Positions 3,019 to 38,028 of a stretch of 38,498 nt of DNA are shown one piece after another. The position numbers were made by a program, and so were the translations under genes. Below the pieces are notes generated by a model. It did no database searches. It saw only the letters and a program-made list of their open reading frames with translations, and was not told the DNA's origin. The stretch comes from a virus. Positions within the stretch are counted from its first letter, which is position 1. Every line of letters starts with the position of its first letter. The DNA is taken from positions 1-38,498 of IMG/VR virus record IMGVR_UViG_3300045996_000907; one strand, given 5' to 3'.

Positions 3019-4565
3019 TGCTCACCCCCCAATTCCTGCTGCCGATCCACCGCGAGCTGGTGATCGACCTGTTCGCCGGGGGAGGCGGCGCCAGCACCGG
3101 CATCGAGAAGGCCATCGGCCGGCCGGTGGACATCGCCATCAACCACGATCCCGAGGCGGTCGCGCTGCACCAGGCGAACCACCCCCAGACGTTGCACTAC
3201 GTGAGCGACGTCTTCGAGGTGGACCCGGCGGCTGTCGTCGACGGCCGGCCGGTGGGCCTGCTCTGGGCCAGCCCGGACTGCAAGCACTTCAGCAAGGCCA
3301 AGGGCGGCAAGCCGGTGAGCAAGAAGATCCGCGGCCTGGCGTGGGTGGTGATCAAGTGGGCGAAGCTGGTGCGGCCGCGCGTGATCTTCCTGGAGAACGT
3401 CGAGGAGTTCCAGACTTGGGGGCCGCTCGGCCCGGACGACCGGCCGTGCCCGCAGCGCAAGGGCCGCACGTTCCAGCGGTGGAAGAAGTCGCTGGAGAAC
3501 CTGGGCTACCGGGTCGACTTCCGGGAGGACCGCGCATGCGACCTGGGCGCGCCGACGATCCGCAAGCGGCTGTTCCTGGTGGCGCGGTGCGATGGCCAGC
3601 CGATTGTCTTCCCCGCCCAGACCCACGGCGCGCCGGACAGCCTGCCGGTCCGTCAGAGGAAGCTCAAGCCCTGGCGCACGGCGGCGGAGTGCATCGACTG
3701 GAGCATCCCCTGCCCCAGCATCTTCGAGCGGAAGAAGGATCTGGCAGAGGCAACTCTGCGCCGGATCGCCAAGGGTGTCACGCGATACGTGGTGGAAGCC
3801 GCTGAGCCGTACATCGTGCGCATCGGCCACACTGGGCACGGCGACAGCGGCAAGGTGCGATCCATCCATGACCCGCTGAGCACGATCACCAGCAAGGCGG
3901 AGCACCTGCTCCTGACGCCGACGATCATCAGCATGGGCCACAGCGAAAAGCCCGGCCAGGCGCCGCGCGTCCCGGGCATCGAAAAGCCGCTCGGCACCAT
4001 CACCGCGCAGGGCCGGCACCACGGGTTGGTGTCCGCCTTCCTGGCGAAGCACTACGGCGGCGTGGTCGGCAGCGAGTTGCCCAAGCCGATCGGCACCGTC
4101 ACCAGCGTGGACCACCACAGCCTGGTGGCCAGCAGCCTGGTGAAGCTGCGCGGCACCAGCAAGGACGGCCAGCCGGTCGATCAGCCGCTCCACACGATCA
4201 GCGCCCAGGGCATGCACCACGCGGAGGTGCGCGCCTTCCTGATCAAGTACTACGGCACCGATCAGGATCCGCAGCTGCTGGAGCCCCTGCACACCGTGAC
4301 CACGAAGCACCGGTTCGGCCTGGTCATGGTCGCCGGCGAGCCCTACGCGATCGTCGACATCGGCATGCGCATGCTGTCGCCGCGCGAGCTGTACCGCGCC
4401 CAGGGCTTCCCAGAGAGCTACCAGATCGATCGCGGCGGCGACGGCCGCGTGCTGACGAAGACGGCCCAGGTGCGCATGTGCGGCAACAGCGTCTGCCCGC
4501 CGATGGCCGAGGCTTACGTCCGGGCGAACTACAGCGAACACGTTGTCCTTGAGGAGGCCGCTTGA
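3018..4565 (+). CDS. C5 cytosine DNA methyltransferase with repeat-bearing TRD
   Basis: A 515-residue Dcm-type enzyme that would transfer a methyl group from AdoMet to C5 of cytosine. Motif I is DLFAGGGGAS (17-26), motif IV SPDCKHFS (85-92, catalytic C88), motif VI ENVEEF (126-131), motif VIII around IRKRLFLVAR (181-190), and the C-terminal motifs are RMLSPRELYRAQGFP (451-465) and CGNSVCPP (488-495). Motif IV has PDC rather than the common PPC. Between motifs VIII and IX, five units of the form PLxTITSxxHHxLV recur every 33-38 residues (285, 323, 356, 389, 422), filling the target-recognition region. With no partner endonuclease nearby, it is probably an orphan that shields phage DNA from restriction or changes host methylation. 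Confidence 0.93.
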   Translation: MLTPQFLLPIHRELVIDLFAGGGGASTGIEKAIGRPVDIAINHDPEAVALHQANHPQTLHYVSDVFEVDPAAVVDGRPVGLLWASPDCKHFSKAKGGKPVSKKIRGLAWVVIKWAKLVRPRVIFLENVEEFQTWGPLGPDDRPCPQRKGRTFQRWKKSLENLGYRVDFREDRACDLGAPTIRKRLFLVARCDGQPIVFPAQTHGAPDSLPVRQRKLKPWRTAAECIDWSIPCPSIFERKKDLAEATLRRIAKGVTRYVVEAAEPYIVRIGHTGHGDSGKVRSIHDPLSTITSKAEHLLLTPTIISMGHSEKPGQAPRVPGIEKPLGTITAQGRHHGLVSAFLAKHYGGVVGSELPKPIGTVTSVDHHSLVASSLVKLRGTSKDGQPVDQPLHTISAQGMHHAEVRAFLIKYYGTDQDPQLLEPLHTVTTKHRFGLVMVAGEPYAIVDIGMRMLSPRELYRAQGFPESYQIDRGGDGRVLTKTAQVRMCGNSVCPPMAEAYVRANYSEHVVLEEAA

Positions 4566-35374: not shown

Positions 35375-35481
35375 GATCTCTCGTCCTCCGCCACCTGGGC
35401 CAGGTCGCGCTCGGCGCGCCGCATGGCGAGGGCGGCCACCAGCACGATGCTGGGGACCAGCCAGAGGAGGAGGATGGTCAC
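35371..35481 (-). CDS. 36-aa single-helix membrane microprotein
   Basis: GTG at 35481 overlapping the upstream stop (GTGA); its stop overlaps the DUF4406 GTG. VTILLLWLVPSIVLVAALAM is one membrane helix, followed by a charged tail (RRAERDLAQVAEDERS). Small membrane proteins of this kind are common in phage early operons; function unknown. Confidence 0.55.
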   Translation of the reverse strand: MTILLLWLVPSIVLVAALAMRRAERDLAQVAEDERS

Positions 35482-35867
35482 GGCGCACCCCCTTGCAGCA
35501 CGCGGCGCAGCGCCAGGTTTTCTTCGCGCGCCAGGCGCAGCTGCTGCTCGAGCTCCGACTCCCGCCGGCGCATGGCGTGCAGGTCGTAGCCCCGGTCGTA
35601 GTTCATCCACAGCAGGGGCGCGTCGTTGCCGCACACATCCATCAGGCCGCAGAACTTGTCCCACTTGATGCCCTCGCCGCCCTGCTTCCAGCGTGTGAGC
35701 TGGGTCGCATCGACCTTGACGCCGTGCTTGGCCAGCGCGGCCTCCAATTCCTTGTCGTAGGAGTAGCCGGCGAGCTCGGCGCAGTATTCGATCGCGCGGC
35801 CCAGGGTGGGCTTGCGCATCACTTCCGAGAGGGGAACCTCCACGGACAACAGGGTCGGTTGAGTCAT
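35478..35867 (-). CDS. CII-like / HTH early regulator, 129 aa
   Basis: ATG at 35867 with GGAGGG ten bases upstream. The core TLGRAIEYCAELAGYSYDKE, VDATQLTRWKQGGEGIKWDK and FCGLMDVCGNDAPLLWMNYD has the helix-turn-helix layout of phage regulators related to CII, in which a helix reading TQLTRWKQG contacts DNA. The end is a coiled coil (RRRESELEQQLRLAREENLA). Second gene of the leftward operon after the Cro-like gene, as cII is after cro in lambda, so control of lysogeny or of late genes is plausible. Its target promoter was not identified. Confidence 0.65.
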   Translation of the reverse strand: MTQPTLLSVEVPLSEVMRKPTLGRAIEYCAELAGYSYDKELEAALAKHGVKVDATQLTRWKQGGEGIKWDKFCGLMDVCGNDAPLLWMNYDRGYDLHAMRRRESELEQQLRLAREENLALRRVLQGGAP

Positions 35868-35939
35868 GGTGCGCAACCCTCCGCAGCAAGATTGCGTGGC
35901 GTTGCGAGGCTCAGCAGGGCAAATTGACGAGCCATGACA

Positions 35940-36227
35940 TCACGCCGCTTTCTTCTCTGCCGCCGCCGGGACCTCCGGGGCGCCGTCCGTGCCGATCAAC
36001 ATCGGCCAGATGCGATGCCAGTCGTCGGGGCGCAGCTCCCACACCGGCACGCCGGTCGCTTCGGCCACCGCTGGGGCGTAGGGCGCCGGCACCCTGCCCT
36101 CGCGCACCCACGACTGCACGCTTTGGTAGCGCTCCACACCGAGCCGGCGGGCCGCGTTGACCGAGCCGTCCAGGATGCGGACGGCCCGCGCTACTGCTGA
36201 TTCAGGGGTGTTGCCTTGCTGGTCCAT
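35940..36227 (-). CDS. Cro/YdaS-like repressor, 95 aa
   Basis: ILDGSVNAARRLGVERYQSV, then QSWVREGRVPAPYAPAVAEA and GVPVWELRPDDWHRIWP, is the YdaS/Cro-like helix-turn-helix with its closing L-R-P-D motif. Divergent from the repressor gene at 36309 and first in the leftward operon, it has the place of Cro. The predicted promoter at 36255-36283 lies on top of the operator pair. The C-terminus is a short Ala/Lys tail. It is expected to lower repressor expression during lytic growth. Confidence 0.85.
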   Translation of the reverse strand: MDQQGNTPESAVARAVRILDGSVNAARRLGVERYQSVQSWVREGRVPAPYAPAVAEATGVPVWELRPDDWHRIWPMLIGTDGAPEVPAAAEKKAA

Positions 36228-36239
36228 TCCGCGCCTTTA

Positions 36240-36270
36240 CTAGATTCTCTAGCAATACTAGGCGATCTTG
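36240..36270. promoter_or_regulatory. Left operator pair (two 13-bp inverted repeats, linker CAATA)
   Basis: Site 1 is CTAG-ATTCT-CTAG (36240-36252), a perfect inverted repeat; then CAATA; site 2 is CTAG-GCGAT-CTTG (36258-36270). Centre spacing is 18 bases. The right pair at 37578-37608 has the same site-linker-site layout and the same CAATA. The pair covers the predicted -10 of the leftward promoter and abuts the possible repressor promoter. Confidence 0.75.
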
Positions 36271-36283
36271 CATTGGACTGCAA
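36255..36283 (-). promoter_or_regulatory. Predicted leftward early promoter
   Basis: On the minus strand TTGCAG (36283-36278), a 17-base spacer and TAGTAT (36260-36255). The -10 lies in the operator linker, so bound repressor would block it. Transcription would begin near 36248 and read the Cro-like gene first. The hexamers are only moderate matches to the sigma-70 consensus. Confidence 0.5.
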
Positions 36284-36308
36284 TGGGCTGCATGAAAAAC
36301 TTGCACCC

Positions 36309-36809
36309 ATGGATGACATCCACCAGCAGATCAAGGCGGCCCGGGAGCAGAAGGGCTGGTCCATGGCGCGGCTGGCCGCCGAGGTCAGCAAGGCGGAAGG
36401 TCGTCCGGAAGGGCAATACCTGAACTGGCAGACGGTCCAGCAATGGGAAAAGGGGACGTCGGCCCCGAAGCGCACCCGCATGGAACTGGTGCGCCAGCTG
36501 CTCGAGCTGGACCCGCCGTCAACGAAGGGCGAGGTGTTCCACCGCGTGAACGACGACGAGTGGACGATGCTGCAGAACTATCGGCGTCTGCTGGACAAGG
36601 ACCGCAAGGCGTTCGATGCCGAGATCGCGGCCCGCGCGGCCGAACGCCAGGCCGAGGCTGACGAGATCTTCGCCCGCTACGGCGTGGCCCAGGCGGCCGA
36701 GCGCGCCAACGCGCGGCGCCAGGACACCAGCACCATCACAGTGGACCCGGCAGACCCGCGGTTGCGCCAGGAAAGCCTGTTCGATCCGGGCGAGGAACCG
36801 GAGGCATGA
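36309..36809 (+). CDS. CI-like phage repressor (HTH, no peptidase domain)
   Basis: 166 residues. The N-terminus MDDIHQQIKAAREQKGWSMA, RLAAEVSKAEGR and WQTVQQWEKGTSAPK form an XRE-type helix-turn-helix. The remainder (DDEWTMLQNYRRLLDKDRKA onward) is a helical oligomerisation region. There is no S24 peptidase domain, so induction would not use RecA-triggered self-cleavage. The end carries QESLFDPG, close to the QL(S/D)LF pattern that binds the sliding clamp. The ATG at 36309 has no ribosome-binding sequence; a TTGGAC at 36273-36278 could start a leaderless message there. Operators lie just upstream and at 37578. It should hold both early promoters silent in the lysogen. Confidence 0.8.
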   Translation: MDDIHQQIKAAREQKGWSMARLAAEVSKAEGRPEGQYLNWQTVQQWEKGTSAPKRTRMELVRQLLELDPPSTKGEVFHRVNDDEWTMLQNYRRLLDKDRKAFDAEIAARAAERQAEADEIFARYGVAQAAERANARRQDTSTITVDPADPRLRQESLFDPGEEPEA

Positions 36810-37069
36810 TCGCGGCGCGGCGCTGGGGAGCCGCCGCATGGTGGGCGCCGGCGTGGCTGGGGCTCGCCCTCCTGCACTCGCTCACCGGCGACAGCAGCGT
36901 GACACACTGGGCGCAGCTCTGGTCCGGCTCCTTCGGTTGGCTGGCCTTCCCTTTTTGGGCGGGCTGGTTCGCGCCCAGCATGGTGGATCGAGCGGCGCCG
37001 CCCTACTCCCGCGTCGCGGCGGCCGCTGTCGCCTGCCTGCTATGGCAGCTGGCCCTGCGTGGTCTATGA
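36806..37069 (+). CDS. Membrane protein co-expressed with the repressor (possible exclusion protein)
   Basis: 87 residues, start overlapping the repressor stop (ATGA). Hydrophobic Trp-rich segments at about 8-27 (WGAAAWWAPAWLGLALLHSL), 42-57 (GSFGWLAFPFWAGWFA) and 68-86 (SRVAAAAVACLLWQLALRGL) suggest three membrane helices. A membrane protein made together with the lysogeny repressor is a classic place for superinfection exclusion or a lysogenic conversion factor. The function is inferred from context; no family was recognised. Ends six bases inside the opposite HTH gene. Confidence 0.65.
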   Translation: MIAARRWGAAAWWAPAWLGLALLHSLTGDSSVTHWAQLWSGSFGWLAFPFWAGWFAPSMVDRAAPPYSRVAAAAVACLLWQLALRGL

Positions 37070-37342
37070 GCTGGGCGCGCTGCGGCCGGCGCGGGAGAAG
37101 ATGGCCCTGAGATCCTGCGGCACCATGTGCGTGCCGAACAGGATGTAGTCCGAAGACACGCCATAGGCCAGGCACAGGTCCTGCAGCCGGACTGCCCCCA
37201 CTTCCCGCGTCCCCGCCTCCACCGCGTAGATCGTCTTGGCGGAACACTTCGCCTCGACGCCGGCCTCTGCGGGGCTCAGCTTCGCAGCGAGCCTGCACTC
37301 GCGCAGACGGGAGCCAATTTCGATGAGCCTCACCTTGGTCAT
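37064..37342 (-). CDS. XRE-family HTH regulator, 92 aa
   Basis: IGSRLRECRLAAKLSPAEAG, then KCSAKTIYAVEAGTREVGAV and LQDLCLAYGVSSDYILFG, is a standard XRE helix-turn-helix domain with the typical closing Y-G-V-x-x-D-Y-I-L-x-G. It reads towards the repressor operon and overlaps its last gene by six bases. A 15-base inverted repeat, TCTACACAGCGTAGA, sits 14 bases upstream of the start as a likely autoregulatory operator. It may be a second switch protein or a host-gene regulator. A different operator sequence from that of the 36309 repressor suggests a separate circuit. Confidence 0.85.
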   Translation of the reverse strand: MTKVRLIEIGSRLRECRLAAKLSPAEAGVEAKCSAKTIYAVEAGTREVGAVRLQDLCLAYGVSSDYILFGTHMVPQDLRAIFSRAGRSAPSS

Positions 37343-37355
37343 ACCGTTCTAGTTT

Positions 37356-37370
37356 TCTACACAGCGTAGA
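37356..37370. promoter_or_regulatory. Inverted repeat operator of the XRE-family gene
   Basis: TCTAC-ACAGC-GTAGA: a perfect 5-base inverted repeat with a 5-base centre, 14 bases upstream of the 37342 start. It differs from the CTAG/CTTG operators of the repressor but has the same 5-5 geometry plus one outer base. Confidence 0.55.
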
Positions 37371-37577
37371 CAGCCTGCACCCCCTTCTTGCGAGTGATTT
37401 CCCGGAAGTGAGAAGTTCTCAACGCGTGCGAAACGGCGCCCGTGTAGCCCTACAGATGCACTTGTACACAGTGGCTTGGCCTTTTGCTACGGCTGAGCAG
37501 GGTTCTGGCCCGAAAGGGTTAGGGCCATGGCTGAGCCTACGTACCCACGTAAGTAATCGCAGCCTTCCCGACCGCTA

Positions 37578-37608
37578 CAAGTTTCTCTTGCAATACTAGT
37601 TTCTCTTG
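37578..37608. promoter_or_regulatory. Right operator pair (same layout as left pair)
   Basis: Site 3 is CAAG-TTTCT-CTTG (37578-37590), then CAATA, then site 4 CTAG-TTTCT-CTTG (37596-37608); centre spacing 18 bases. The 10-base GTTTCTCTTG is repeated exactly. The pair overlaps the -35 and spacer of the predicted rightward promoter. Confidence 0.75.
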
Positions 37609-37616
37609 TGCATACT
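37588..37616 (+). promoter_or_regulatory. Predicted rightward early promoter
   Basis: TTGCAA (37588-37593), 17-base spacer, CATACT (37611-37616). Transcription would begin near 37623 and enter the early operon at 37645. The -35 and spacer coincide with the operator pair, so repressor binding would exclude RNA polymerase. Confidence 0.65.
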
Positions 37617-37644
37617 GCATCCCATCAACCCGATGGAGACGCAG

Positions 37645-38028
37645 ATGTCGATCAGCACCCTCGAATCCACCGCCAGCGTCCGCGCCCTGGACGCGATGGG
37701 CCACGAAGAGGCGCAGCGCGCAGCGGGAGTGGCACAGCTGGAGCGGGCCTACGTCGCGGCGGTGAAGTGCGGCCGGGCTGATGTGCTGGCTCTGTTCGCG
37801 CCGCGCAAGGTGCACCGCGTTGGCACCGACGGCAAGACCACGCCGACGGTTGCCGAGGTGCTGTTCGAGTCCTTCGACCGGAACGCCCGCGACGGTTTCA
37901 TGCAGGCCGCGATGCAGATCATCCTGGACTGCGCGAACGGCCACGCCACGGACATCCAGAGCGCGGCGCAGGAACTGCTGCAGGACGCTGGCGCGAAGTG
38001 GGCGGACAACGAGGCGGACTTCCTGTGA
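37645..38028 (+). CDS. First gene of the rightward operon, unknown, 127 aa
   Basis: ATG at 37645 with GGAGAC six bases upstream; an ATG at 37633 lacks a site. The product, MSISTLESTASVRALDAMGH onward, is acidic and helical, with VARLF-like patches and a central basic segment (APRKVHRVGTDGKTTPTVAE). No family recognised. As first gene after the repressed early promoter it would be made immediately on induction or infection, which suits a host-takeover, anti-defence or antitermination function; none of these can be shown from sequence. Confidence 0.7.
   Translation: MSISTLESTASVRALDAMGHEEAQRAAGVAQLERAYVAAVKCGRADVLALFAPRKVHRVGTDGKTTPTVAEVLFESFDRNARDGFMQAAMQIILDCANGHATDIQSAAQELLQDAGAKWADNEADFL

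Follow-up and report, generated by a model that had tools for sequence, protein, structure and literature searches.

Genes and paired sites of the locus

The window analysed here is the complete stretch of a virus record of 38,498 bases. The gene at 36309..36809 (plus strand) encodes a protein of 166 aa with an XRE helix-turn-helix (HTH) domain (HTH_3, 1.2e-5), a recognition helix WQTVQQWE and a long helix at residues 82-124; this is the putative prophage repressor, i.e. the CI analogue. The first gene of the leftward early operon (35940..36227, minus strand) codes for a YdaS-type Cro analogue of 95 aa (Pfam PF15943, 8e-10; PHROG 35, transcriptional repressor, 4.5e-11). The rightward early operon starts with a gene for a protein of 131 aa (37633..38028, plus strand), a homologue of which is found beside OL in the related locus L009.

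Further genes surround these elements. A second XRE protein of 92 aa is encoded between repressor and OL (37064-37342, minus strand), and the palindrome TCTAC-ACAGC-GTAGA (37356-37370) just upstream of its start looks like an own, different operator; this palindrome was not found in locus L007, despite the presence of a homologue of the XRE protein there. Encoded at the position of CII (35478-35876, minus strand) is a protein of 132 aa with very good conservation in L007 and L009. It gave no Pfam match and a weak PHROG match to a transcriptional regulator, and is possibly a CII analogue. In the position of lambda rex, a small hydrophobic protein (36806-37069, plus strand) without a family match in Pfam or PHROG overlaps the repressor stop codon.

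Two pairs of palindromic sites, both non-coding, are located at 36240-36270 and 37578-37608. The left pair comprises O_R1 (36240..36252, CTAGATTCTCTAG) and O_R2 (36258..36270, CTAGGCGATCTTG), the right pair O_L1 (37578..37590, CAAGTTTCTCTTG) and O_L2 (37596..37608, CTAGTTTCTCTTG). All four sites fit CWAG-N5-CTWG and both pairs have a centre spacing of 18 bp, exactly as given in a preliminary description of this DNA. The sole further exact match in the window, CTAGCAATACTAG (36249-36261), is interleaved with the left pair, since self-complementary CTAG half-sites make this operator readable in a third register too. In 300 first-order Markov simulations the mean number of exact single sites was 0.74 (observed: 5) and that of exact pairs 0.00 (observed: 2). 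Because the motif was picked after inspection of the sequence, not these simulations but the relatives provide the real test, and there the motif holds.

Recurrence of the layout in related prophages

For the main test, loci were collected by alignment of the repressor HTH alone, without the motif. The HTH alignment was needed to find relatives, as the full-length protein used as query against viral contigs gave no match. Of the resulting 105 loci (1.0 Mb), 80 come from viral contigs and 25 from genomes, nearly all of the latter belonging to Burkholderiales and related beta-proteobacteria. With <=1 mismatch allowed, we found 109 pairs with inner spacing 5 and linker 5 in 79 of the 105 loci and 39 pairs with linker 4 in 33 loci; linkers of 6 and 7 accounted for 9 and 3 pairs, respectively, and inner spacings other than 5 gave 0-1 matches at equal stringency. 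The OR pair begins 71-75 bp ahead of the repressor ATG or match (the site homologous to O_R1 lying at -71 to -75), and the OL pair is found 0.5-4.7 kb downstream of the repressor. Both pairs are present in 66 loci; some of these are one prophage seen in two collections, so that the count of 43 distinct loci is the safer one. At <=1 mismatch several loci with the repressor HTH, e.g. L023, L024, L029 and L074, had no standard pair. OL consists of three tandem sites with 18-bp pitch, not two, in L031 (+638) and L116 (+656).

A scan of viral contigs that started from the motif, i.e. from the layout with the exact CAATA linker, yielded eight contigs. Six of them carry a second four-box array with a different linker nearby, and in all eight an HTH of the 36309 type was either located beside the array or found later in the contig, the match in L010 being weak. 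The 31-base layout, for which a search of related prophages had been proposed, was found in dozens of relatives beside this repressor family.

As a search pattern the bare layout has its limits. The OL-type pattern, used in a reverse search, matched 91 viral contigs, 48 of them with multiple hits, and all matches in the latter fell into open triplet-repeat (collagen-like) reading frames without a repressor. Among the 43 single-hit contigs, 13 contained the repressor within the DNA examined. A decoy with inner spacing 6 gave no matches in this search; it is not a control for coding repeats of 9 bp. Collagen-like triplet-repeat genes, as in the multi-hit contigs L118-L205, mimic operators of four boxes with a 9-bp period and are a trap for motif searches, and we therefore rejected the layout as sufficient evidence of an operator. 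That the similarity of the two pairs might be a product of chance or of repetitive sequence finds its one argument in these repeats, which produce the bare 9-bp-period layout as well. The pairs described here, however, are non-coding, occur twice and at fixed positions beside one repressor family across Burkholderiales, and the spacing controls were close to zero, so that this explanation has practically no probability left. As judged from the sequences of the relatives, a chance origin of the paired layout is excluded, and it is well supported that the paired motifs represent real binding-site clusters of a lambda-style switch common to many Burkholderiales prophages.

A third OR site and the predicted promoters

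The preliminary description assumed a fixed geometry of two sites and overlooked a third OR site, which was detected in 72 of 78 loci scored. In the window, O_R3 (36291..36303, CATGAAAAACTTG) is placed just upstream of the repressor start and has one mismatch to CWAG in its CATG half. The centres of O1 and O2 are 18 bp apart, and O3 follows after a further 33 bp. O3 lies 8 bp past O2 in 60 loci, whose HTH has no insertion, and 20 bp past O2 in 11 loci including the window, all of which belong to a subclade with an insertion of about 7 residues ahead of the recognition helix. As far as the aligned sequences tell, the spacing of O3 follows this insertion. No third site was detected at <=1 mismatch in L109, another locus with the insertion. 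A dependence of the O3 spacing on loss of the S24 peptidase domain was rejected, because L031, L032, L033, L035 and L103 combine long C-terminal domains with the long spacing.

Promoters were predicted by a register scan with consensus calls, covering all positions on both strands with spacers of 16-18 bp. PL, PR and, in most relatives, PRM were placed over the sites with 17-bp spacers; for the window's clade the scan gave no placement of PRM. The predicted PL (plus strand) has the -35 TTGCAA at 37588..37593 (O1+10) and the -10 CATACT at 37611..37616 (O1+33), with O_L2 inside the 17-bp spacer. The relatives show the same pattern, with a TTGCAT-like -35 at O1+10, OL2 inside the 17-bp spacer and the -10 at O1+33; this register ranked first in both OL groups with linker 5 and second in the group with linker 4. 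For PR, the majority of relatives have the -35 within the linker, a spacer containing O1 and a -10 similar to TAGAAT; their PRM (NTGACA) contains O3 within its spacer. PR is shifted in the window's clade: O1+43 is the position of TTGnnn and O1+20 that of the -10, either TAGCAT or TAGTAT, and the spacer includes O2. The best register of this clade corresponds in the window to the -35 TTGCAG (36278..36283, minus strand) and the -10 TAGTAT (36255..36260, minus strand), separated by a 17-bp spacer that includes O_R2; the -10 overlaps the linker and O_R2, and O_R1 covers the predicted start region. Both predicted promoters are of the sigma-70 type; CATACT of PL and TTGCAG of PR are imperfect matches to the consensus. 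Scan and relatives together bear out the earlier proposal that both pairs lie on predicted promoters facing away from the repressor gene.

The linker and the extended half-site

In the window both pairs share the linker CAATA (36253..36257 on the left, 37591..37595 on the right), which had been regarded as a conserved element that might itself be read. The relatives speak against this idea: their linkers vary in length (4-6 bp) and sequence (CAATG, CATTA, CATG and others), and those of OR and OL are identical in 6 of the 43 distinct loci, compared with 2.4 expected from re-pairing. The identity in the window is therefore not a feature of the family, and CAATA as a conserved element was rejected.

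The linker can be explained by the flanks of the sites. At OR, the dinucleotide on the outer side of each site is pyrimidine-purine in 69 of 69 and 69 of 69 cases, and at OL the outer flanks follow this rule in 85 of 88 and 81 of 88 (position counts). The linkers fit YR..YR at both ends in 40 of 43 loci for OR and in 36 of 43 for OL, which indicates that the site is better written as YRCWAG-N5-CTWGYR (17 bp). Read in this way, the five-base linker YR-N-YR is composed of two half-site edges and one free base, and the four-base linker, mostly CATG, corresponds to YR-YR. CAATA in the window would thus provide the outer bases of the two abutting half-sites and at the same time part of a promoter hexamer: on the right, CAA is half of the PL -35, and on the left the linker contributes to the PR -10. 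The suggestion that it serves as a -10 on the left holds for this phage and the relatives nearest to it (TAGTAT).

One might also read each region as four equally spaced half-sites with a 9-bp period that can be occupied in several registers, instead of two fixed 13-bp palindromes. The left operator reads CTAG-N5-CTAG-N5-CTAG-N5-CTTG with an exact match in the central register as well (36249-36261), and the operators of CP-933P contain mixed inverted and direct repeats (PMC8630535). Yet the linker varies from 4 to 6 whereas the inner spacing never does, which marks two dimer units, and at OL the inner halves, CTTG followed by CTAG, spoil the central register. We regard this reading as very improbable and retain two palindromes per pair, each of which would be bound by one dimer.

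The repressor and its YdaS-type partner

No S24 peptidase domain was found in the 36309 protein; it is present in 34 of 58 relatives. An AlphaFold2 model (pLDDT 80, pTM 0.44) consists of the HTH and the long helix 82-124, and its fold matches concern the HTH only (SinR, P22 c2, 434; all E >0.001), the fold of controllers of the C.Esp1396I type being among them. A sequence search of the PDB gave no match, and positions 14000-38498 did not match any phage by megablast. Of 69 loci with an OR pair, 15 encode a repressor of less than 185 aa, taken as proxy for the absence of S24, so that the operator layout does not depend on the peptidase domain. Lack of the domain also suggests that induction probably does not proceed via RecA-stimulated self-cleavage, and SOS self-cleavage of this repressor appears unlikely.

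A divergent YdaS-type gene was present in 95 of 97 loci tested, and a search starting from YdaS led back to this system, as 34 of its 35 contigs also carry the repressor. The recognition helix of YdaS (YQxVQxW) resembles WQTVQQW of the repressor, which fits sites shared by both proteins. YdaS genes are thus associated with the boxes no less tightly than the repressor, their recognition helix matches, and in phiKO2 Cro and repressor differ in the sites bound (PMC4997575); it could be argued that the sites are mainly Cro operators and that the 36309 protein binds elsewhere or secondarily. But the position of OL, downstream of the repressor, is that expected of an early promoter under repressor control, both proteins bind the same region in CP-933P (PMC8630535), and the register of O3 differs by repressor subclade (20 in the 11 loci with, 8 in the 60 without insertion). 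This alternative is improbable in our view, and sites shared by repressor and YdaS are more likely than exclusive ones.

We therefore return to an immunity switch under control of the 36309 repressor. As in lambdoid phages, the repressor gene is divergent from a Cro-type gene with the operators in between, there are three OR sites (O3 of the window with one mismatch), and OL, 1.3 kb from OR on the far side of the repressor gene, covers a predicted early promoter directed outward. In the mechanism we propose, repressor dimers would bind to neighbouring 17-bp palindromes, O1 with O2 and OL1 with OL2, and silence PR and PL by blocking access of RNA polymerase. Occupancy of O3 would tune expression of the repressor itself, and YdaS would compete for the same sites and favour lytic growth. 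We put at roughly 0.88 the probability that a lambda/434-like immunity switch works in this way here, with the two regions as its OR and OL operators in mirror orientation; the OL/OR-like immunity region postulated in the preliminary description is supported by the same layout, place and repressor family in dozens of relatives.

Comparison with known switches

The half-site of 434 is ACAAG, which resembles RCAAG of the family described here; the HTH of the family member L012 is about 42% identical to that of the 434 repressor, and the logic of OR and OL with PR, PRM and PL is alike. Lambda sites are about 23-24 bp apart, in contrast to the abutting pitch of 17-18 bp here. Looping of OR to OL by CI oligomers is a trait of the lambda type; in the window, 1.3 kb separate the two operators. 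Lambda and 434 further differ in having three OL sites rather than two and a Cro that is not of the YdaS type, and the self-cleaving CI proteins of lambda, 434 and P22 carry an S24/LexA-like C-terminal peptidase that is absent from the 36309 repressor. In restriction-modification controllers of the C.Esp1396I type, XRE dimers sit side by side on two adjacent palindromes overlapping a promoter, an arrangement resembling the binding presumed here; unlike the present system, these autoregulate a restriction-modification operon and have neither an OL/OR pair nor a Cro partner.

Among known switches, those of N15/phiKO2 and CP-933P come closest. The immB region of N15 and phiKO2 is similar in having an OR of three sites between repressor and cro, an OL of two sites and early promoters overlapping the sites, and its CB repressor is non-cleavable and lacks the self-cleavage residues (PMC4997575). 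It differs in its 16-bp operators of the form T-A-N10-T-A and in an OL that controls repA of a plasmid prophage. In the PaaR2/YdaS-YdaT switch of CP-933P (E. coli O157:H7), the PRM/PR region with its 18-bp palindromes at equal spacing is footprinted by PaaR2 and YdaS, and PL933P is under the same control (PMC8630535). This system and RacR/YdaS of Rac resemble ours in the divergence of a CI-type regulator from a YdaS-type Cro and in the equal spacing of the palindromes, and CP-933P also in a PL with similar operators. Both have more repeats per region than the window. The operator code of PaaR2 is GTTTAGTAA, not YRCWAG-N5-CTWGYR, and the CP-933P switch is coupled to a toxin-antitoxin operon. 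RacR binds GCCTAA/TTAGGC repeats (PMC5700373), again unlike the code found here.

Named relatives include phages of Bordetella avium, lysogens of which were reported to lack superinfection immunity (PMC10269795). One of them, vB_BaM-IFTN2 (L012), has the family repressor as well as OR and OL pairs of the usual form. Loss of operators as cause of the missing immunity in IFTN2 was thus not supported, and loss of sites is an unlikely explanation there. In IFTN2 the repressor is annotated to start at 3923, upstream of O1, which is probably too early; the homologous position is near 4001.

Significance for prophages of the Burkholderiales

The kind of switch is already known. The literature searched, which leaves out most subscription journals, contained no description of this operator code or of its distribution in Burkholderiales. 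Somewhat doubtful as a whole, and offered tentatively, is a wider picture of one switch family widespread in Burkholderiales with a single operator code. The pitch of its abutting dimers would be fixed because the edges of the half-sites overlap promoter hexamers, and the operators would have been retained despite loss or replacement of the C-terminal peptidase of the repressor. Lysogeny would then depend on contacts between neighbouring dimers and induction on a signal other than SOS; in one subclade the HTH insertion would be accompanied by a displacement of O3 and of PR, the latter by 23 bp.

For a large bacterial order, the analysis describes prophage immunity by an operator code and a gene layout that can be tested. 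Prophages sharing this code can be predicted from it, and switches stand out in which the repressor would be unable to cleave itself and would need another way of induction.
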